Positions 3,466-46,308 of a stretch of DNA of 47,464 bases are shown here, piece after piece. The notes beneath the pieces are model-generated. The model did no database searches. It was not told where the DNA came from and was given only the letters and a program-made list of their open reading frames with translations. Position numbers and translations under genes: made by a program. The stretch's first letter is position 1; each line of letters begins with the position of its first letter. The stretch lies in IMG/VR virus record IMGVR_UViG_3300006990_003274, positions 1-47,464 of that record. One strand, 5' to 3'. The stretch comes from a virus.

Positions 3466-3945
3466 TTAGCGGGGGTCTACTTTTAGATAGATGTTATCGA
3501 ACTCTTGCTTTTTGTGTGTTTTAAATATCAAGTGTACACATGTAAACTCGCCTGTCATACTAACACGATACTCGCCACCATGTACCATATCATCAGGCAC
3601 TTTCATATGCCAACCATTTTCAACTCGCTCGCCTGGTGCTGTGTTTTGCACATAGCGTTTTGTAAATGTGTTTAGTTGATGTGAGTGTGAGCCGTCTGTT
3701 GCGTATGCTACACCATATGCGGCTGTGCTGTTGCATTCGTAACGCTTTGATCCTACCATGTAGAACTCTATGTCTTGGTCTGCTGTTACTGGATTGTTTG
3801 TTACGCTTATTTCTGTATCTGTAAACACAAATGCATTGTCAAAGCTCATGTACATTATACCTAACGATATAATTGTTACCATACTAAGTCCGCTTATCAG
3901 ATTTAGTATTGCTTTTTTTAATATAAATTTTCTATTACTGTTCAT
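3466..3945 (-). CDS. Hypothetical membrane-anchored periplasmic protein
   Basis: 159 residues. A basic N-terminus (NSNRKFILKK) is followed by one hydrophobic helix at about 15-35, giving a type II anchor or uncleaved signal. The rest is a beta-rich exported domain with two cysteines (Cys73 and one near residue 137) and many His/Tyr/Thr. It overlaps the upstream membrane-protein gene by 11 bases, so the two are probably coupled and share control by the upstream riboswitch-like element. Function unknown. Confidence 0.6.
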   Translation of the reverse strand: MNSNRKFILKKAILNLISGLSMVTIISLGIMYMSFDNAFVFTDTEISVTNNPVTADQDIEFYMVGSKRYECNSTAAYGVAYATDGSHSHQLNTFTKRYVQNTAPGERVENGWHMKVPDDMVHGGEYRVSMTGEFTCVHLIFKTHKKQEFDNIYLKVDPR

Positions 3946-4252
3946 TTCTAAGTTCCTGTACTTCTCTAGAAACTGCTTTAAATTCGCTTCGTACTTCAGA
4001 CAAGTTCTTACTAGCTCTATTTAGCGTCTTTACTAGTTGTCTTATCGTGTAAATTGTCCAGAACCACCACGTTACTGCTGTTACAGCAAATAGCCCTAAC
4101 CCTACATAAAATGCTTGTTCAAAATTAATTACACCTGTAGCAACTAAGATTCCGGCAACCACCAGAAAAATAGTAGGGACTATCCTTGCGAATGTATCCC
4201 ATCTCTCGACTTGGGCTTCTATTTGTTTTTCGTTTAATTCCATAATCTTCAT
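3935..4252 (-). CDS. Small two-TM membrane protein behind a preQ1-I-like element
   Basis: 105 residues: a short charged N-terminus, two hydrophobic helices at about 25-42 and 46-68 separated by a tight turn, then a charged coiled-coil-like tail to the end. A holin-like or structural membrane role is possible, and no family is recognised. Its ATG is 4 bases after AAAAGG, the SD that forms the 3' tail of a candidate preQ1-I aptamer, so translation may respond to preQ1. ATG at 4243 is an alternative start. Confidence 0.6.
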   Translation of the reverse strand: MKIMELNEKQIEAQVERWDTFARIVPTIFLVVAGILVATGVINFEQAFYVGLGLFAVTAVTWWFWTIYTIRQLVKTLNRASKNLSEVRSEFKAVSREVQELRNEQ

Positions 4253-4255
4253 TCT

Positions 4256-4289
4256 GCCTTTTGTTATCGGAGGCTCGTGGCGAACTCCG
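4256..4289 (-). promoter_or_regulatory. Candidate preQ1-I riboswitch masking an SD
   Basis: On the minus strand: P1 arm CGGAG (4289-4285), loop TTCGCCACGAGC, P1 arm CTCCG (4272-4268), A-rich tail ATAACAAAA, then GGC (4258-4256), which can pair with GCC of the loop to make an H-type pseudoknot. Spacing matches the known preQ1-I layout: P1 of 5 bp, UUC, three P2 bases, five bases, then the ligand-pairing C just before P1 closes. GG of the tail belongs to the SD AAAAGG, so ligand binding would hide the ribosome site. A separate small hairpin (ATGAC/GTCAT) lies just upstream at about 4299-4314. Confidence 0.6.
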
Positions 4290-10912: not shown

Positions 10913-10986
10913 AACACTCTCCCTTTTACAGTTAAGTGCGTTCCTTCGCTTAGTGCTACTTCCGGGCTTATTGCCTGAACGTAATA

Positions 10987-11364
10987 TTATTTAGCTCTAG
11001 ATTGGTAGTCTTTTATTGCTGATTTGATTGCATCTTCGGCAAGTACACTGCAATGTATCTTAACTGGCGGTAGTGCAAGTTCTTCTACAATGTCCATATT
11101 CTTAACTGCTGATGCTTCGTCTAGTGTCATTCCTTTTACCATTTCAGTTACTAAACTTGAACTTGCTATTGCACTACCGCAACCGTAAGTTTTGAATTTA
11201 GCATCTACAATAACGTTATCTTCTACTTCTATCTGTAGACGCATAACATCACCGCAGGCAGGTGCTCCTACCATTCCTGTTCCGATGTTATCTTTACTAG
11301 GATCAAACTTTCCAACGTTGCGGGGGTTTTCGTAATGGTCCATTACTTTTTCTGAGTAGGCCAT
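10987..11364 (-). CDS. iscU: IscU-type Fe-S cluster scaffold
   Basis: 125 residues, full length for IscU. The three cluster-binding cysteines are present: Cys37 in PACGDVM (with Asp39), Cys62 in YGCGSA and Cys105 in KIHCSVLAED. So is the LPPVK loop recognised by the HscA chaperone. It assembles [2Fe-2S] clusters on a desulfurase partner; no IscS is visible here, so it would have to use the host's. Its substrates during infection may include host or phage Fe-S enzymes. It follows a tRNA cluster on the same strand, with a CATAAATA element 29 bases upstream. Confidence 0.9.
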   Translation of the reverse strand: MAYSEKVMDHYENPRNVGKFDPSKDNIGTGMVGAPACGDVMRLQIEVEDNVIVDAKFKTYGCGSAIASSSLVTEMVKGMTLDEASAVKNMDIVEELALPPVKIHCSVLAEDAIKSAIKDYQSRAK

Positions 11365-18093: not shown

Positions 18094-18145
18094 TACTAAC
18101 GAGCGTAATGCTTATTGGAAAGCGTACTTACTTACTTCGAAGTAG
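18008..18145 (+). CDS. Small hypothetical protein overlapping the Cys-rich ORF
   Basis: 45 residues, MMYAQTANVKIPMEHYIAKL then a Lys/Glu-rich end. AAGGAG lies 7 bases before the ATG, a strong SD inside the Cys-rich ORF in a different frame. It overlaps the 3' end of the oppositely transcribed cyclase by 14 bases. Unknown. Confidence 0.5.
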   Translation: MMYAQTANVKIPMEHYIAKLKEHEAKRLSTNERNAYWKAYLLTSK

Positions 18146-20180
18146 CAATAAACACACCGGACCAGTCTTTAGGAAGGTCTTGTGTTTTCTGGAATTCACA
18201 ACGTTCAATCCACATGTCATAGTATGCACTCATTTTGCCATCAAAGTGGCTGTGTAGTGTATTACATAATTCTATTGCTTTGTCAAAGTCTTGTGCTAGA
18301 TATGCTTTGTGCATTTCTTCATGCTTACGTTGTGCTGTACGCCAAGCAGGGCGTCTATTATCTAACACTGTCCATATTGTAATACCTACAGTTTTACCTT
18401 TAACTGCTAAATCGTCGATTTTTAAATAGAAAAAGTCGGTTTTAGTACGTTGGTATGTCGCATCTCCAACAAGTAATACACATCCGTATTCTTTACACTT
18501 GCTTTCAATACGAGCGGCTGTACTGACTGAGTCTCCAAGGACGTCATAACTGTGTCGGGCTGTTGAACCCATCTCGCCAAGATAGCCAAGACCAGTATTA
18601 ATACCAGCCCCCATACCCACTGGGGGTCTTCCTTCTTTGGTAATCTTATCATTAAATATCTCCACTGCTTTTAACATATCCAATCCGCATTGTACTGCTG
18701 TCTTTGGATGTTGCGGATCTTCAATTGGTGCATTGTGTACGTGCATACTTGCATCGCCAATGTACTTAATAACCATACCGTCTGCGTCAAGTATAGGTTG
18801 TGTGATGGCATCCATGTAACCATTCATAATTTTTGTTAGACCTTTTACATCATCACCAAATGATTCACCTAATGGTGTAAAGCCTCTTAGGTCTGAGAAA
18901 CAAATTGAAACTTCTTTCTTCATACCATCTTTTATAAGTGCAGGATTCTCTTGTAGCATACGTACTACTGTTGGTGATGCATATCCTGCAAACTGTTTTT
19001 TGATTGCTTGTTTCTGTGCATACTCACTTACAAATCTATTAAAGATTGCATGTAAGCCTACTACAAATACAGTTACCATAGGCATTGTACCATCTAACAA
19101 GTACAAATAATTAACCCATGCATAATGTACACTATAGGTGAGTCCTCCCACAAACGCAACTAATATTCCTCCAGCCAACCAGTAAGGGGCAAACCTTCCA
19201 ACGCACACCAGTGCTATGCCTAGTAGTCCGGTTGTGATAAGCTCTGCTAAGAATGCCCAATAGGGACGCTCAATTTGATCGCCATCTATCACAGTTTGAA
19301 GTGTTACTGCGGCCGGTATATAGTTGTGTTGTGGTCCAGTCGGACTAGCGATTAAACCACCTATGCCTTCTGCGGTTACTCCTATAATAACAGTCTTCCC
19401 TTCAAACGATCTATAATCATCTGAGGCCGCACTAATAGTTTCAAATTGTTTATTCCATCTCAACCATATCTGTGCATTAGGATCTGTTTTTATAATTGGG
19501 TAACCAGGAACTCGTACTGCTTCTATTCCACCACCAGCTTCTTTAACTTGGTAACTAGGGTTTCCTGTTGCTACACGAATAACTTCAATTGCTAAAGCGG
19601 GATACGTGTCTTCGCCGACACGCATTAGGAGTGGTACTCGTCTTACAACACCGTCGATTTCTGGGTTAGTGTTCAACACGCCCACACCGTCAGCATTATC
19701 TCCTAGCAATTGGATTGGTCCTAACATTCCTGGCCATTCAAACATATATGGCACAGGATCACCAATTTTCGCAATGCCTCGAGGGACCGCATTACGATTG
19801 GCTTGGGTACTTCCTACTTGTGCTATTACAACACCGTTACCCGCAAGTGCTTCAGCTAATTGAATATCACCACCTAGTCTATCTGTCTCAGACATGATAA
19901 CAGGAATTACGATGATACCAGCACCTGCTTCGCGAAGTTTCCAGATTATATCTGCAATTATATCACGCTTCCAGGGCCATTGCCCGTACTTTTCAATGGC
20001 GGCTTCGTCAATGGTCACGATGCCGACGTCCTGGGATAATGTTGCCTTATCAGTTTGTTGAAGTAAGTCGAATTGCTTAAGGCGAGCAGTCTGCACTAAT
20101 TGACCATCTGTGTAATGCAGACCTATCATAATGAACGCTGTGACAAACGCCACAGTCCAATGTGTAATATACTTCGTCAT
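18132..20180 (-). CDS. CHASE2-domain class III adenylate cyclase
   Basis: 682 residues. Order: N-terminal TM (about 6-22); extracytoplasmic CHASE2 sensor (about 25-300, with GIVTIDEAAIEKYGQWPW and GKTVIIGVTAEG); three TMs (307-327, 332-352, 358-378); class III cyclase domain (about 420-605); short helical tail. Catalytic residues: metal Asp430 (FSDLRGF) and Asp476 (KYIGDAS), adenine-selecting Lys472 and Asp546 (SYDVLGD), and Arg557 (AARIE). The usual transition-state Asn of the GDxVNxAAR motif is Ser553, so activity needs testing. It is last in the curli/FecR operon and would let infected cells make cAMP in response to a periplasmic signal. Confidence 0.9.
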   Translation of the reverse strand: MTKYITHWTVAFVTAFIMIGLHYTDGQLVQTARLKQFDLLQQTDKATLSQDVGIVTIDEAAIEKYGQWPWKRDIIADIIWKLREAGAGIIVIPVIMSETDRLGGDIQLAEALAGNGVVIAQVGSTQANRNAVPRGIAKIGDPVPYMFEWPGMLGPIQLLGDNADGVGVLNTNPEIDGVVRRVPLLMRVGEDTYPALAIEVIRVATGNPSYQVKEAGGGIEAVRVPGYPIIKTDPNAQIWLRWNKQFETISAASDDYRSFEGKTVIIGVTAEGIGGLIASPTGPQHNYIPAAVTLQTVIDGDQIERPYWAFLAELITTGLLGIALVCVGRFAPYWLAGGILVAFVGGLTYSVHYAWVNYLYLLDGTMPMVTVFVVGLHAIFNRFVSEYAQKQAIKKQFAGYASPTVVRMLQENPALIKDGMKKEVSICFSDLRGFTPLGESFGDDVKGLTKIMNGYMDAITQPILDADGMVIKYIGDASMHVHNAPIEDPQHPKTAVQCGLDMLKAVEIFNDKITKEGRPPVGMGAGINTGLGYLGEMGSTARHSYDVLGDSVSTAARIESKCKEYGCVLLVGDATYQRTKTDFFYLKIDDLAVKGKTVGITIWTVLDNRRPAWRTAQRKHEEMHKAYLAQDFDKAIELCNTLHSHFDGKMSAYYDMWIERCEFQKTQDLPKDWSGVFIATSK

Positions 20181-22947: not shown

Positions 22948-23697
22948 TTAGTCGCTTTGTGTTATATCAACGTCTTGATCATCACCAGCAAAATCAGCGT
23001 CAACCATATTATCGTTGACTCCACTTTGTGTAACTGTATAACTACTTGCACCGCCTGTAGCATCAATTTTAACTGTGTGTCCTGCACTGTCGCCGTCACC
23101 ACTTATGTTAATATCAACTACATTACCTGCACCACTTGATGTTAAATTGTTTCCACTAGCCGCACCGCCACTTGCTGTGCTTGAACTATTGTTTACAGTA
23201 ACCGCAACCAATGCACTTTTGCCGTCAACGTTTGAGTTAATAACGTTTCCGTCTCCAGTGATTGTGAATCCAATTGTAGATCCATCTGCATCAGCTGTAT
23301 CGCCAATGTCAAATGTAAATGCGTTTGAATCACCTGTTGCTGTAATATTTAAAGTTATGTTTTCACAATTGGTTCCACTTGTACTATCACAACTTAAATC
23401 CACTGTGTTACTATCTCCTGTAAACACCCATGTACCAGTATAAGTGTCACCTTGGATATCTGCTACGATTGTGTTTAAGCTACCTGTTTGTGTTATAGCA
23501 AATGTCATCGAGTCACCATCTAAGTTTACGTCTGTTGTTGATGTACCGATTACGTTATTTGCTCCGTCTTGCACAATATCTAAATCTAATGTATCACCCA
23601 CTTGCTCAATGTATATGTCGTTAGCCAAAGCAGGAGCCACACTAAAGATTAGTAGTACTAATGCTGTTAAGCTATTTGAAATGTACTTTCTTGTCAT
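22948..23697 (-). CDS. Curlin-repeat fibre subunit (CsgA/CsgB-like)
   Basis: 249 residues. Signal peptide to PALA (about residue 25), then NDIYIEQVGDTLDLDIVQDGANNVI, a classic curlin repeat, and several further Ile/Val-x-Gln/Thr-x-Gly-x-x-Asn units (FAITQTGSLNTIV, IGFTITGDGNVI, YTVTQSGVNDNMV). Low charge, rich in Gly, Ser, Asp, Asn. Expected to polymerise as an amyloid-like surface fibre after export by CsgG. GAGGG sits 7 bases before the ATG; it overlaps csgG by 26 bases. Confidence 0.85.
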   Translation of the reverse strand: MTRKYISNSLTALVLLIFSVAPALANDIYIEQVGDTLDLDIVQDGANNVIGTSTTDVNLDGDSMTFAITQTGSLNTIVADIQGDTYTGTWVFTGDSNTVDLSCDSTSGTNCENITLNITATGDSNAFTFDIGDTADADGSTIGFTITGDGNVINSNVDGKSALVAVTVNNSSSTASGGAASGNNLTSSGAGNVVDINISGDGDSAGHTVKIDATGGASSYTVTQSGVNDNMVDADFAGDDQDVDITQSD

Positions 23698-24664
23698 TGT
23701 TGTCCCTCGTTGTATTTGTTATTATTTTTTCTTCAGCTTCTATAGGCCAACATAAATCTTTCTCGCTACAGTACAATCTAGCTTTAGGCCATTTTTCCAA
23801 TGCATCTTTTAATGGTAATGGTCTCAGCTTAGGCACCTCGCCTTTGTATTTTGTACTGACCTCTTTAAACTTCCAAAGTCCTTCCTTTTCACCTTCATAT
23901 ACCAGTTGCACTACACCTGCTTCAATTGCCGCCCTTACAGCATAATTTACTGGCTCGTTAACAGAGTAACCTGTCTCCGACTCTATCAATTTAGTTCCCA
24001 TATCTAAGAACTTAAATACGTCTGCTCCAGACCTTGAACTTGCAATAGTTTTTTCTGTTGCAATACTCAATAACACCTTTCCAGTGCTAACTGATACAAT
24101 TCTCATCACTACTGTGACTGTATCAACTCTATACTCAGTTTGTGCGCCTACTCCAAGATATCTTGCACCAGCACCTCCAATAGCTACATTGCTATCGTAA
24201 CCAATAATGCCGCCTTCAAGTATCAGTCCTGCAAATACCATTGGCTTTAATGCTCTTGGACCGTTCGGTAAGTTTTTCTCGTATACTTCTCTAGTGTTAC
24301 GGATCAACTGTCTTTCTTTAATCAAGTTATCCATACCTATACGTTCAACAACTTCGAACCATGTTTTGTTGCCTATATCTTGCAGAGCTTTTATAACCCA
24401 AACCTCTGAACCTTGCGTTACTGCACTAGATAGATTAGCAATATTATCTGCAGGTTTACGTTGTCCAGTTTTATCTGAAAAACTATAAACTGCAATAGTA
24501 ATTTTCTGCCCGTCTAACTCAGGAACTGCAATCATCCTGTCTGCTAATGGAGCCGGCTGTATCCTTGGTGGACCAGCATTTTCCTTTATAGCCAGTGACT
24601 GTTGCATTGTTCCACTGCATCCAGTTAGTAACAATAAGCCTATGATAGTTAAGATCTTGTTCAA
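23672..24664 (-). CDS. csgG: CsgG-like curli secretion lipoprotein, TTG start
   Basis: 330 residues. A lipoprotein signal with lipobox LTGC (Cys16) is followed by a CsgG domain: KITIAVYSFSDKTGQRK, SSAVTQGSEVWVIKALQD, WFEVVERIGMDNLIKERQLI, LILEGGIIGYDSNV, GARYLGVGAQTEYRVDTVTVVMRIVSV. It forms the outer-membrane nonameric pore for curlins. The start must be TTG 24664 (overlapping the csgF TGA as TTGA), since the next Met would remove the signal peptide. It is longer than E. coli CsgG (277) by a C-terminal extension. Confidence 0.92.
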   Translation of the reverse strand: MNKILTIIGLLLLTGCSGTMQQSLAIKENAGPPRIQPAPLADRMIAVPELDGQKITIAVYSFSDKTGQRKPADNIANLSSAVTQGSEVWVIKALQDIGNKTWFEVVERIGMDNLIKERQLIRNTREVYEKNLPNGPRALKPMVFAGLILEGGIIGYDSNVAIGGAGARYLGVGAQTEYRVDTVTVVMRIVSVSTGKVLLSIATEKTIASSRSGADVFKFLDMGTKLIESETGYSVNEPVNYAVRAAIEAGVVQLVYEGEKEGLWKFKEVSTKYKGEVPKLRPLPLKDALEKWPKARLYCSEKDLCWPIEAEEKIITNTTRDNNDKKVHFK

Positions 24665-25551: not shown

Positions 25552-26238
25552 TTATTTAATCTTAGGAAAGAGCATGTCTGTGCAGAATTTATCAACGTCT
25601 GCTTCATTAAGCCCTAGGCTTTTCATTACTCTTGGGGTATGTGGATTTTGTTGCTGATTATGGCAATAGTAGTTTTGACTTGCAATAGTTAAGTCTCTAT
25701 CACCTTCGCCTGTATAATGGCCAACGGAATCAAAGTACGTTTCAAGGTTGTCAAGCGCCAGTTGAATAATAACAGTTGCTTCTTCTTCCTTTACATTGCT
25801 TGCCGCAATCATACTTGGAGTAAAGATGTTTGTTGCCCACTCGGGTAACTCACGCTTCTTTTCTGGCACAAAGTCTTGTACTGCACTCTGATACCATTGA
25901 ACCATAGGGTGATCTTCTCCGCCTGAACTAGCAGAAAAATCATGGAAAGCACCAGTCATTTTAGTCTTTCCTGCAATAACGTCAAATCCGTAAATTGGAC
26001 CGTTATTGTTAAGTTGTGGAAATACACAAACATGCATCATCCACAAACCTTTAGTATCTCTTGCGTCGACTACATCAATATGAGCTCTGCGAACATGTTC
26101 GTTCTCCCATACTCTGTTAATCCAACTCCCGTCAGCCTGATTAAAATGGTCCATTCCTGGTTCATTTATTTCAGTGCCGCGGGCATTGAACATTTGAATG
26201 ATATCTTCTTGACAGTCGACGAGTTGATCCCAGATCAC
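25552..26238 (-). CDS. pcyX: Ferredoxin-dependent bilin reductase, PcyX-like
   Basis: 228 residues from GTG 26238 (GGAGAG 4 bases upstream). The core PQLNNNGPIYGFDVIAGKTKMTGAFHDFSAS carries the proposed catalytic Asp of the HDFSA segment. FTPSMIAASNVKEEEA and QNYYCHNQQQNPHTPRVMKSLG match this reductase family (PcyA, PebS, PcyX). Context (immediately after heme oxygenase, phage genome with alphaproteobacterial traits) fits PcyX, known from uncultured pelagiphages, which reduces biliverdin to phycoerythrobilin. Electrons would come from a ferredoxin not seen here. PebS is the alternative. Confidence 0.85.
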   Translation of the reverse strand: MIWDQLVDCQEDIIQMFNARGTEINEPGMDHFNQADGSWINRVWENEHVRRAHIDVVDARDTKGLWMMHVCVFPQLNNNGPIYGFDVIAGKTKMTGAFHDFSASSGGEDHPMVQWYQSAVQDFVPEKKRELPEWATNIFTPSMIAASNVKEEEATVIIQLALDNLETYFDSVGHYTGEGDRDLTIASQNYYCHNQQQNPHTPRVMKSLGLNEADVDKFCTDMLFPKIK

Positions 26239-26257
26239 TTTACTCTCCTACTTAACT

Positions 26258-26851
26258 TTAGTAAGTGAAATTGTTTAGTTCTTCAAAAATTGCTGTTGAA
26301 AGTTCAAAAGCCTTATTAGCTTCGTCAGCCATGCTATCTTTAGTACGCTTACGAATTAATGCTTTCATTTCATCTACAGAATGATTCATATCTGCGAATG
26401 CATACATTCTACCTGATCCAGGTACTTTGTTTGCAATCATTTGTCCGCCACTCAAATCGCCCATGTGTCTTACATAAACGTGTGCAAACAATTTGTCTTT
26501 ATCGTGTTGACAATTTTTTACAATGTGACTTCTGTATGCTTCTGCTGAAGGTGCTATCTGTGGTGGATTTGAACCATCTTCGGCTCCACCTAATTCTACG
26601 TAGTCTGCCCAAATATCATCTGCTTGGATTAAACCATCTAATGGTAGATCGTCATCCGGCATTGATAAATCTTCTGGTCCAAAACAACCCATGCTTAGTG
26701 CAACATCTTCTAGGATGTCATATACTAACCACATGTTGTATAGGTATGTTTTATATTTTACTTCGCTCATTTTGCCAGACATCATTTCTCTTGCGAATTC
26801 CTGACGTTCTGCGTTCTGATGAGCGGCTTGTGTTAGTGATGCTAAACTCAT
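26258..26851 (-). CDS. Heme oxygenase
   Basis: 197 residues, HO-1/HugZ-independent classic fold. Proximal His in LTQAAHQNAE (His11) and the distal helix HVYVRHMGDLSGGQMIA with the Gly-rich heme-contact motif GDLSGGQ. It opens heme to biliverdin, CO and iron. The product feeds the PcyX-like reductase next door (20 bases between the genes). A TATAAATA late promoter lies 44 bases upstream, so the pair is probably expressed late. Confidence 0.93.
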   Translation of the reverse strand: MSLASLTQAAHQNAERQEFAREMMSGKMSEVKYKTYLYNMWLVYDILEDVALSMGCFGPEDLSMPDDDLPLDGLIQADDIWADYVELGGAEDGSNPPQIAPSAEAYRSHIVKNCQHDKDKLFAHVYVRHMGDLSGGQMIANKVPGSGRMYAFADMNHSVDEMKALIRKRTKDSMADEANKAFELSTAIFEELNNFTY

Positions 26852-33567: not shown

Positions 33568-34140
33568 TTATTGCCAGCGATAAAATATATGTGTAGAGAT
33601 ACTACCAACAAGCTGAATCTTGCTTGCCCAACGAGGACTCACGTAGTCAGCATGGTAGTGTGTTGCGCCTTCTGTAATGCCTCGCATCTTATCAGTATGT
33701 ACAATTTTATATGCTATAATTTGTGCCATACGCCAAGCATCATGATCTCTTACTGTGTCAGCCTTGCCATCACAGTACCAAGAGAATTGACATCTATTCT
33801 TTTTTGGATAATAGATGCGTTCATCATCAGAAAGATCAGGATTTTGTTTTGTTTTCCAACTTTCTTTGATTGGTCCGTCTTTGACAACTTCGCATATTGT
33901 GTTAGGATAACGAGTATCGTTAACACGATTAAGAACTACATCAGCAACAGCATACTGCCCTGCTAGTGGTTCTGACTTAGCTTCAAAGTAAATGTTTTGT
34001 GCCAGACAATAAAGTTCTGGTTGATTTTCTTGTGTATATAATTCCTCAGTTTCTGCGTTTTGGAATGTACTTGCTCCTGCTTGGGCGAAAGCGGTTGACA
34101 CCGTCATAACGGCTACTGCCCAATATAAATTTAATTTCAT
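33568..34140 (-). CDS. Secreted SleB-type cell-wall hydrolase (endolysin candidate)
   Basis: 190 residues from ATG 34140. Cleavable signal (to AFAQAGA), then a Hydrolase_2/SleB domain: LYCLAQNIYFEAKSEPLAGQYAVADVVLNRVND with the catalytic Glu in YFEAKSEP, TICEVV, CQFSWYCDGK, AWRMAQIIAYKIV, GATHYHADYVSPRW. It cleaves peptidoglycan. A signal peptide in a lysin suggests Sec export to the periplasm rather than holin-only release. GAGG lies 8 bases before the ATG. Confidence 0.85.
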   Translation of the reverse strand: MKLNLYWAVAVMTVSTAFAQAGASTFQNAETEELYTQENQPELYCLAQNIYFEAKSEPLAGQYAVADVVLNRVNDTRYPNTICEVVKDGPIKESWKTKQNPDLSDDERIYYPKKNRCQFSWYCDGKADTVRDHDAWRMAQIIAYKIVHTDKMRGITEGATHYHADYVSPRWASKIQLVGSISTHIFYRWQ

Positions 34141-34193
34141 AATCTGCCTCATGTTTTATTTAAAGTTGTTTAGCACATACTTTTGTATGTACT

Positions 34194-37514: not shown

Positions 37515-37850
37515 TGTGGGGAAAGAGTTAAAGTACGACTTTTCTGTTGCTAGGTAAGTCGCCAACCCCGAGCGATTATGCCGCTAGGGCGAAATCCTCA
37601 TTGACAGCGAAGTCATTAAGTGCACCGAAGTTCACGAAAGTAAATTCGCCGTTGTTTATATTTGCTTTTGCAATTATAAGTTTCGTTCGCGTTAACCGAG
37701 CTTACATCCGGGCAACTCCACTCTTCTACTAATCCGCCTGTCGATCCCATGTCATCCCCATCATAAGCACACTCAGTAAATGTGTTTATGGTGGAGATGC
37801 CGGGAATTGAACCCGGGTCCAGCTCGTCGTTTGAATTGCTTCAACGTTAC
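37515..37850 (-). ncRNA. ssrA: Circularly permuted two-piece tmRNA
   Basis: Order on the minus strand: acceptor piece (about 37850-37789) with T-loop GGGTTCAATTCCC and encoded CCA; a 29-base intervening piece (37788-37760); then the coding piece starting GGGGATGACATGGGATCGACAG. GGGGATG pairs with CATCTCC of the acceptor piece. This permutation, cut out during maturation, is the alphaproteobacterial layout. The tag reads ALNDFAVNEDFALAA (37623-37579) then TAA, with a ClpXP-type ALAA end. Pseudoknot arms (GGGG/CCCC, GCGACTT/AAGTCGT) follow; the 3' limit is approximate. Confidence 0.9.
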
Positions 37851-37857
37851 ATTTATA

Positions 37858-37886
37858 TTTATACAGTCTTTTTAGAGAGATGTCAA
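37858..37886 (-). promoter_or_regulatory. Sigma70-type promoter for tmRNA
   Basis: TTGACA, 17 bases, TATAAA; the start site near 37851 coincides with the acceptor-piece 5' end. The -10 also forms part of TATAAATA, so early and late use are both possible. Confidence 0.75.
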
Positions 37887-38252
37887 GAGAAGAATGTAAG
37901 AAAGATAACAAGTATAATGCAATATTTGATCTATTGACTGTGTTACCCAATAACTATTGTCTGACGGTGTCCATTTATATCTTTTGACTATTTTTGTTTT
38001 ATAATGATCAATAGCAAAATGAAGTATATAATCTAGTAATGCAATTATAATAGCATTTACAAAGTTAAATGTAATTAATAATATAACAAGAAATGTTCCT
38101 ACACTATGATCACCGGCATGAATGTATCCTTTAGAACTTCTAAGGTCGCCTTTGTCTCCTGGTAGGTTACGGAAAGATTGCAATGCCAAATCAGCAATAG
38201 CATGTTTAACAAACAGTCCCCAAAGCAATAATAAACTTTCTATCATGCCCAT
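37872..38252 (-). CDS. DUF3307-family membrane protein
   Basis: 126 residues, mostly hydrophobic with three to four TMs. GLFVKHAIADLALQS, GYIHAGDHSVGTFLV, ALLDYILHFAIDHYKTKIVKRYKW and QSIDQILHYTCYLSYI contain the conserved His/Asp pattern (HxGDH, DxxxHxxxDxxK, DQxLH) of DUF3307. Function unknown. AAGGAG lies 8 bases before the ATG; its 3' end overlaps the tmRNA promoter. Confidence 0.75.
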   Translation of the reverse strand: MGMIESLLLLWGLFVKHAIADLALQSFRNLPGDKGDLRSSKGYIHAGDHSVGTFLVILLITFNFVNAIIIALLDYILHFAIDHYKTKIVKRYKWTPSDNSYWVTQSIDQILHYTCYLSYILLLTSL

Positions 38253-44877: not shown

Positions 44878-45553
44878 CATGTTTGTCGTAATACTGATAC
44901 ACTCTATCCCACCACATTTGTTCATACTTGTCAAACTCGTCTGGCCATACATCAAACTGTTGATACTGTAGGTCTCTTGAACACATAAAGATGTGTCCTT
45001 CACGTATGTTGGTGCCAAATACTTCGTTGTGAGCGAGAGCATAGGCTGTGAGCTGTAAGTAATAGTCTTCAACCCATTCAGGCTTTTTAGGCTTGTTTGT
45101 TTGTTTAAAATCCATTATACAAGGCTGTCCTTTATACTGTCCAACCAAGTCAGTTGTACCTGCATATAATTTAGGATGGAATAAGTTTATCTCTGATCCC
45201 CATATTTCGTCAACATCGACCATAGCGTTGTCACGGATCTGTTCAGCCATCTTGTGAGCTTGCTGTGCATAAGGGTTAGATCCAGGTGTAGGCCATTCGC
45301 CAAAGTCAACATAGTCTTCCAAATACTTGTGCATACGTGTACCAACACTGGCCGCTTCAGTAACAATTTCTTGTGCTTTTGCTTCACCTACACGTTTGCG
45401 CCATGCAATTAAATGGGTCTTATCTTTCGTTTTATCAAGGATAGTTGTAACACTTGCGACAGCGTTTCCGTCTGGACATGCGTATAAACGCTTGCCATTT
45501 ATCTGTTTACGTTTGATTTCTTTGTAGTCGTACTTCTCTATAATTAAACTCAT
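44873..45553 (-). CDS. PD-(D/E)XK nuclease
   Basis: 226 residues. Catalytic core AGTTDLVGQYKGQPCIMDFKQTNKPKK (Asp, then D-x-K) and the QxxxY helix DYYLQLTAYALAHNE are as in RecB/Cas4/lambda-exo-like nucleases. The N-terminal region (SVTTILDKTKDKTHLIAWRKR) is typical of PDDEXK_1. No iron-sulfur cysteines are seen, so not a full Cas4. Possible recombination or host-DNA degradation role. Overlaps hemC by one base. Confidence 0.85.
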   Translation of the reverse strand: MSLIIEKYDYKEIKRKQINGKRLYACPDGNAVASVTTILDKTKDKTHLIAWRKRVGEAKAQEIVTEAASVGTRMHKYLEDYVDFGEWPTPGSNPYAQQAHKMAEQIRDNAMVDVDEIWGSEINLFHPKLYAGTTDLVGQYKGQPCIMDFKQTNKPKKPEWVEDYYLQLTAYALAHNEVFGTNIREGHIFMCSRDLQYQQFDVWPDEFDKYEQMWWDRVYQYYDKHG

Positions 45554-46308
45554 TAGTTCTCCGTGTAGTATACTGCTTCCAGCTTTATTGGATTGCTACC
45601 TGTTGCATGACCTGCAACTTTTGTAGAACAATCTCCGCCTATTCCTTTTAGTAATGCTCTTTCTAATTGTGCCTGTTCGTATGTTAGTTTATGATTTGCT
45701 TTGCTTACAATAGCATTTGTTGCTTCATCATCCTTGCGTGTCTGTAGTGCAATAATTCCTTGTCCAACTGCTGGCACTATGCTAGTCAAACGTTCGTAAT
45801 CTCTTTTGATACCTAGTGCATCTAATCCTGCTTCTGCAAGTACAATAGCATCATATTCACCTGCATCTAACTTTGCAAGTCTTGTATCAATGTTACCACG
45901 TATAGGTTTAACTTGCACATTAATTCCAGCATACAGTTGTTCTAGTTGTGCTTTGCGTCTTGGACTACTAGTACCTATTACAAAGCCGTCAAATACTTTA
46001 CCTATCAATACATCATGTGGCCTATTACGTTTTAACACTGCACATATATGTAAGTCAGGATGTTCTATATCTCCTGGCATATCTTTTAAACTGTGTACAC
46101 CAACATCAATAAGCCCGTGCTTCAATCCGTATTCAATAGCATTACAGAATACACCTTTACCACCTATCTCATGTATAGGAGTATCAGGATTGAGATCACC
46201 ATCTGTTTGTATTACTTCAATAGTTCCTTGGCCCATTGCTTTTATAGCCTTGTCAGCATATGCTAATGCTAACTTACTACCACGCACACCTACTCTAATC
46301 AATGTCAA
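45553..46308 (-). CDS. hemC: Hydroxymethylbilane synthase
   Basis: 251 residues against about 310 in bacteria. IRVGVRGSKLALAYA, GGKGVFCNAIEYGL, VGVHSLKDMPGD (catalytic Asp region), IGTSSPRRKAQL, IRGNIDTRL, EAGLDALG and the dipyrromethane-cofactor Cys in GIGGDCSTKVAGHA are all present. Domain 3 is shortened after the cofactor loop. Converts porphobilinogen to hydroxymethylbilane, upstream of heme, which the phage heme oxygenase then opens. Confidence 0.93.
   Translation of the reverse strand: MTLIRVGVRGSKLALAYADKAIKAMGQGTIEVIQTDGDLNPDTPIHEIGGKGVFCNAIEYGLKHGLIDVGVHSLKDMPGDIEHPDLHICAVLKRNRPHDVLIGKVFDGFVIGTSSPRRKAQLEQLYAGINVQVKPIRGNIDTRLAKLDAGEYDAIVLAEAGLDALGIKRDYERLTSIVPAVGQGIIALQTRKDDEATNAIVSKANHKLTYEQAQLERALLKGIGGDCSTKVAGHATGSNPIKLEAVYYTEN

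Follow-up and report, generated by a model that had tools for sequence, protein, structure and literature searches.

The question raised by this locus is whether a phage gene for a small, uncharacterised membrane protein stands under the control of a riboswitch of the preQ1-I class. The window, by which we mean the whole 47,464-nucleotide stretch analysed (IMG/VR virus record IMGVR_UViG_3300006990_003274, positions 1 to 47,464), had been given a preliminary description from its sequence alone, in which such an element was proposed. The presence of a preQ1-I-like element in the window is confirmed here. It is a real RNA element with class I preQ1 architecture and a consensus of its own, found in phages and in Alphaproteobacteria, and it likely works like a preQ1-I riboswitch.

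Architecture and detection of the element

On the minus strand, positions 4255-4289 form a 35-nt H-type pseudoknot with class I preQ1 geometry, CGGAG-UUC-GCC-ACGAG-C-CUCCG-AUAACAAAA-GGC-A. The 5' strand of a 5-bp helix P1 (CGGAG, 4285-4289) is followed by UU (4283-4284) and by the 5' strand of a 3-bp helix P2 (GCC, 4279-4281); a C at 4273, the candidate specificity base, abuts the 3' strand of P1 (P1'; CUCCG, 4268-4272). The A-rich L3 (AUAACAAAA, 4259-4267) runs into the 3' strand of P2 (GGC, 4256-4258), giving AAAAGGC at the start codon, with the ATG beginning three bases past the end of P2. The preliminary description had recognised this architecture (P1, a GCC loop, a C before P1', an A-rich tail and GGC), which the minus-strand sequence bears out, and had placed the GG within the Shine-Dalgarno (SD) sequence; the GG of the SD-like AAAAGG indeed lies in P2. 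It had the site right at 4256-4289, the element being one base longer, and its placement before an uncharacterised membrane gene is supported.

A generic descriptor with the geometry of the Bacillus subtilis aptamer, drawn up after the element had been seen, matches the window at a single site, compared with a mean of 0.07 matches in first-order Markov sequences modelled on it (n = 60, 56 of them without any). The B. subtilis aptamer fits this descriptor, with a 5-bp P1, the same 12-nt loop and P2 at the same offset. The aptamer of T. tengcongensis does not fit it; only two of the four P2 steps of that aptamer are canonical according to PMC11625349. Covariance model R2, built without the window sequence and without that of locus L034, which carries the same element sequence, scores the window at 57.9 bits (E 1.2e-12).

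Searching with the Rfam preQ1-I model had been put forward as a check, and here the outcome was negative: RF00522 does not report the element, even at E<=10. No Rfam family reaches its gathering threshold at the element site, and at E<=10 the site yields two irrelevant weak matches, RF00522 not being one of them. RF00522 was likewise missing over the whole virus record and, at E<=10, in 12 loci with relatives. Single-sequence folding of the stretch gives a plain hairpin that is not significant (z -0.45), so the case for the element rests on comparison.

Relatives in phages and covariation

Relatives of the 105-aa protein encoded downstream of the element are found in 48 IMG/VR loci. By reading, 18 of these have a clear element, one (L009) a degenerate one and 29 a different leader; presence of the element before this gene is thus variable. 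A pattern scan of viral sequences returned 89 stretches, and two freer scans returned five and six. P1 was absent by reading from the five and present in all of the six, which brought the new pairs CCCAG/CUGGG and AGCAG/CUGCU and, in three hits of one lineage, a P2 of CCC/GGG. L047, with a distant protein relative (40% identity), has P1 AGGAG/CUCCU and P2 AAC/GUU. In L047, L048, L092 and L101 the position of the specificity C is naturally U while P1 and P2 are compensated, which possibly reflects a changed ligand. A side observation concerns L049, L093, L027 and L030, where a second AAAAGGC follows that of P2 at a distance of a few bases; the two 3' strands could compete for one P2 partner.

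Covariance model R1 found one match below E 0.01 in each of the 15 element-bearing records searched (14 at 9e-9 or better, L009 at 9.6e-5), none below this value in 14 element-less relatives (best E 0.05) and none in the record of L045. Two named phages, HTVC008M and Melnitz, hold no convincing copy (R1, best E 0.06). In the named-phage collection, neither the element nor the leader found a match, nor did the 105-aa protein or a 60-aa N-terminal piece of the 163-aa protein described below (E<=0.01). Kinship to HTVC008M and Melnitz suggests sea water as the source of the phage contigs.

Absence of covariation in related phages had been named as the observation that would speak against the element; instead, P1 and P2 covary, with double-sided changes in the relatives. 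Among 26 phage sequences, 208 of 208 cells are paired and five of the eight pairs change on both sides. An alignment of 48 distinct phage and bacterial rows, from which the window was left out, has 99.2% of its 384 P1/P2 cells paired and again double changes at five of eight pairs, a number reached by one of 500 shuffles. Its covariation score was reached by none of 500 shuffles and lies far above that of slid controls, these shuffle-based measures being inflated by kinship among the sequences. As alignment rows were partly picked for pairing, tests with pairs left free weigh more. Of these, the first viral pattern scan, with two of the three P2 pairs free, gave 25 distinct hits, in all of which P2 forms fully and in 24 of which the outer P1 pair forms. 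Three inner pairs, A-U and G-C in P1 and C-G in P2 (the last fixed in some search patterns), never vary in the 48 rows and are therefore no evidence for pairing.

Alignment A2 was made from 30 unique hits and omits L010 (a false hit), L016 (misaligned by MAFFT in A1), L066 and L118, the latter two of which pair fully. Alignment A5 omits the same sequences as well as the window sequence, duplicates, L009 (degenerate, 23 bits), L177 (a phage-like contig in a MAG), L203 (longer L3), and L202 and L204 (match not placed).

Copies in Alphaproteobacteria

When 84,980 species genomes were scanned with P1 left free, 24 stretches were obtained. Sixteen are alphaproteobacterial, five of them on SAR116-labelled contigs, and P1 forms with five of five pairs in every one; in the eight stretches from other groups only 0-2 of the five pairs form. 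One of the sixteen, L162, encodes the 163-aa protein known from the phages and probably represents a binned phage contig. The order to which a SAR116 single-cell genome belongs is represented by 136 genomes, 16 of which have R1 matches at E<=0.001, with one to three copies each; two weak R1 matches in this order, L202 (the sole match in genome G081) and L204, were not placed.

Most bacterial copies stand 6-16 nt before genes for proteins of 43-68 aa; by eye, these proteins show a basic patch and an ATNGL/NAMT-like stretch, and most have one transmembrane (TM) segment. Neither a family name nor a TM segment at the threshold was obtained for the products at L165 and L193. The element of L200 precedes an OmpA-family gene with no long open reading frame (ORF) between, and some bacterial copies have phage-like surroundings by eye. 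In L196 and L199, the element and a 47-aa one-TM protein are followed by a helicase-like gene (by eye), an arrangement that is possibly a mobile island; the element of L199 lies about 300 nt after a tRNA-Phe gene, and no tRNA was found in L196.

Genes downstream of the element

The controlled gene varies: it encodes members of at least three dissimilar phage protein families or the tiny bacterial proteins, and most of the products span the membrane. The preliminary description did not remark on this variety, on the endolysin genes often nearby or on the bacterial copies. A hydropathy segment of at least 1.6 is present in 42 of 68 distinct downstream proteins of at least 30 aa and absent from six others; the remaining 20, which are the members of the 162-166-aa family (that of the 163-aa protein), reach maxima of 1.09-1.59. 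BLAST unites the 105-aa protein with those of L088 and L090 in one family, and below E 0.05 the 163-aa protein, the LEKQN family and two tiny representatives match nothing else. None of the controlled proteins could be named reliably from the protein-family libraries.

In the window, the controlled gene (3935-4252, minus strand) follows tail-fibre-like genes and encodes a protein of 105 aa, which AlphaFold2 models as two long helices (mean pLDDT 83.8, pTM 0.53). By reading, the helices would form a two-TM hairpin with a C-terminal coiled coil. The model had no match at E<=0.001 in a viral structure library, and a match of the protein to DUF948 is sub-threshold. Translation may in fact begin at a second ATG, at 4243; relatives start 9-15 nt after P2. 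The next gene (3466-3945, minus strand, 159 aa) overlaps it and encodes an N-terminal helix, TM by reading, and an all-beta domain; the protein has two invariant Cys. T4 holin T was considered for this second protein and rejected: its AlphaFold2 model is a helix with a beta sandwich that resembles many Ig-like folds, and no holin appeared in the sequence search or among the best 50 of 1723 PDB fold matches. The endolysin-like gene of the window (Hydrolase_2, 33568-34152) lies far from the element.

The family most often found behind the element in phages is that of the 163-aa protein, with 43 of the 92 loci. An endolysin (phrog_181, E 2.4e-68; PG_binding_1 in Pfam) is encoded about 2 kb upstream on the same strand in all 35 testable loci, that is, those with enough upstream DNA, many being close relatives or near-identical. 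Sixteen of the 35 also share the same Rz-like spanin (phrog_739, E 6.5e-16). No holin family in the protein-family libraries matches the 163-aa protein; we infer that it is holin-like. The LEKQN family has weak PHROG matches to 'hemolysin' and 'holin' (E 0.005-0.4). The 289-aa gene after it has an SLT transglycosylase domain (E 1.4e-6) and no PHROG match, and is present in only four of 16 LEKQN-family loci. A 329-aa gene after the 48-aa protein of L203, taken by eye for a transglycosylase, had no Pfam match at E<=0.001 and was dropped as such. The gene behind the element in L144 and L147 is by eye tail-fibre-like, and a short ORF is not obvious there.

The window holds further features of note, all on the minus strand: a permuted tmRNA of alphaproteobacterial type (37532-37890), a CsgG curli pore gene (23672-24664; nearest named phages HTVC008M and Melnitz), and genes for a bilin reductase, a heme oxygenase and a porphobilinogen deaminase (25552-26851 and 45553-46308). 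A 682-aa protein with CHASE2 and adenylate/guanylate cyclase domains (18132-20180) is encoded beside genes that by eye are FecR-like and curlin-repeat-like.

Queuosine genes and the candidate ligand

The preliminary description had pointed to a QueD homologue 1.4 kb downstream and had linked it to the element. The gene is there, a QueD-like PTPS at 2372-2821 on the minus strand (PF01242, E 6.8e-14), about 1.4 kb downstream; it is syntenic and the link does not hold. PF01242 is found in 14 of 14 element-less records of the same family and in 14 of 32 element-bearing records; within the protein family of the window, 10 of 11 records with the element have it as compared to 14 of 14 without, which is no difference. 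Since element-less relatives carry QueD too, QueD is no proof of the ligand. De novo preQ1 synthesis by the phage was discarded, QueC being found in none and FolE in one of 27 records (the window, HTVC008M and Melnitz included). Directly downstream of the element, no queuosine synthesis or uptake gene was seen in the phage and bacterial loci examined; in the protein family of the window, QueD stands farther along.

Among the 16 element-bearing bacteria, TGT is present in 12 (two partial) and QueA in 10, and those without TGT (four) or QueA (six) include incomplete genomes. PF06508 (QueC) matches in 10 of the 16, eight over the cut-off, and in full length only in G057. The other matches, in frames of 371-680 aa, reach no further than the first third of the model and are presumably other PP-loop enzymes. 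The YhhQ-like match of G057 lies on the same contig as its QueC, a contig that may be a binning error; YhhQ was found in one of 24 records. In the order as a whole, two of 136 genomes have a QueC match at E<=1e-20. With full-length QueC so rare in both sets, preQ1 or preQ0 would come from outside, and the element-bearing bacteria probably import one of them. The lack of QueC is order-wide and thus does not track the element.

Pocket contacts of preQ1-I aptamers comprise the G-C floor, U6, the specificity C and the L3 adenines, U6 reading the minor-groove edge of preQ1 in the known aptamers (PMC11625349). The corresponding letters are kept in the 48 rows: the G-C floor, UU and the AAAA in L3 in all 48, and the C in 47. 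The two letters before P1' are GC in 43 rows, AC in three, CC in one and AU in one. preQ1 is a plausible ligand of the element: the retention of these contacts, and of TGT and QueA in most of the bacteria, speaks for it, and the G before the C, the silence of Rfam, the rarity of YhhQ and the lack of any queuosine gene seen directly downstream speak against it.

Discussion

Our best reading, which we rate slightly better than even, is that of a preQ1-I-like cis-acting RNA with a new type of consensus, serving as a translational off-switch via preQ1 or a close 7-deazaguanine. The ligand would dock between P1 and P2, paired to the specificity C, and would stabilise P2. P2 so stabilised would hide AAAAGG(C), and often also the AGGA after it, and initiation and translation would fall, the way translational preQ1-I switches act. 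A holin-like lysis gene would thereby be restrained in those phages that encode the 163-aa protein, and the genes controlled in SAR116-order bacteria, which apparently depend on imported preQ1 or preQ0, would be those of the tiny proteins, most of them with a single TM segment. Since the 163-aa family, L049 and L093 have another purine-rich SD that is not part of P2, occlusion there would be indirect. The listed starts of the LEKQN family lie 33-58 nt past the element; these distances and the second AAAAGGC in L049 and L093 imply that details of the mechanism differ.

A wider proposal is tentative, and we lean against rather than towards it. The element may represent a fourth class I consensus type, common to phages and to SAR116-order bacteria apparently unable to make preQ1, in which a scavenged micronutrient gates small membrane proteins including a holin-like gene of a lysis cassette. 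The timing of lysis, and perhaps an undiscovered preQ1 uptake protein, would then respond to the supply of preQ1.

The same scaffold might read another ligand, the guanine-reading C being kept while G16 and the invariant C-G ceiling select a different purine-like metabolite. The G before the C in 43 of 48 rows, the inner C-G pair of P2 in all 48 (fixed in some search patterns), the natural C-to-U change in L047 and the lack of any queuosine gene seen under the control of the element would fit such a ligand. However, the B. subtilis aptamer has a C-G ceiling too, and all three class I types bind preQ1 despite differing consensus models, as described in PMC11625349. TGT and QueA are, moreover, kept in most element-bearing bacteria, and on balance we think a different ligand unlikely.

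We regard as similarly improbable a translational operator without any ligand. Protein binding, or opening by ribosomes, would let such a pseudoknot set the timing or level of membrane-protein synthesis. What the controlled genes have in common is the type of product, small and mostly membrane proteins, and not a pathway, and T4-type phages have a pseudoknot operator at gene 32; against this stand the invariant loop letters, which match the ligand contacts of preQ1-I, and the occurrence of the same RNA before dissimilar proteins in phages and bacteria. A chance match or a plain hairpin would account for the insignificant fold and for the silence of Rfam, yet it is hardly credible given the covariation of both helices, which weighs strongly, the conservation before dissimilar genes and the restriction of the hits to certain clades.

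If the element binds preQ1, one of the smallest known riboswitch classes gains a type missed by the standard covariance model, and the class moves from queuosine genes to membrane and lysis genes, placing phage lysis under a metabolite switch. Such binding would, in addition, hint at novel small proteins in bacteria that apparently salvage preQ1 without the known transporter. If it does not bind preQ1, an aptamer-like scaffold has another ligand to be found.

Comparison with known systems

In the open-access literature searched, we found no description of the element. For preQ1 riboswitch and phage, the best of the matches listed was phage Seurat, where the phrase occurs only in a reference. 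The terms preQ1, riboswitch and SAR116 stood together in none of the papers searched. Searches for preQ1 with holin and for Puniceispirill with riboswitch gave none on the element as judged by the listing, nor did riboswitch with holin in phage lysis, by the titles of the matches listed. For pelagimyophages, PMC7029224 reports that Riboswitch Scanner detected no riboswitches. A glutamine riboswitch is described in Melnitz-like phages, of a related T4-like group, where the authors speculate on a control of lysis (PMC9004378). The window has one too (RF01739, 42.5 bits, 10935-10983, minus strand), between a NifU/IscU-like gene (10987-11364) and a 50-aa ORF, and its phage would hence hold two riboswitch-like elements, the glutamine riboswitch being of another family and for another ligand.

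Three types of class I preQ1 riboswitch were reportedly defined in a paper of 2014. The published types have UC (type I) or AC (types II and III) before P1' (PMC11625349); with GC at this place in 43 of 48 rows, the element is not filed under any of the three. Type III, known from the E. coli yhhQ leader, shares with it the UU after P1 and an AAGG leading into P2, that is, SD sequestration; it differs in its loop, which is shorter and pyrimidine-rich, in a longer tail, in the AC before P1' and in its target, the transporter gene yhhQ (PMC11625349, PMC10622847). With type II, the element shares the 5-bp P1, the G-C floor, the UU, the 12-nt loop and the canonical 3-bp P2 of the B. subtilis aptamer, and with both type II aptamers (B. 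subtilis, T. tengcongensis) the A-rich L3 of 8-9 nt and the C before P1'. The L3 of the T. tengcongensis aptamer, UUAACAAAA (sequences in PMC10639078), recurs identically in L019, L145 and L155. The element differs from type II in having GC where type II has AC, in the C-A-C at the end of the P2 strand, and in standing before membrane proteins, whereas type II stands before queuosine genes.
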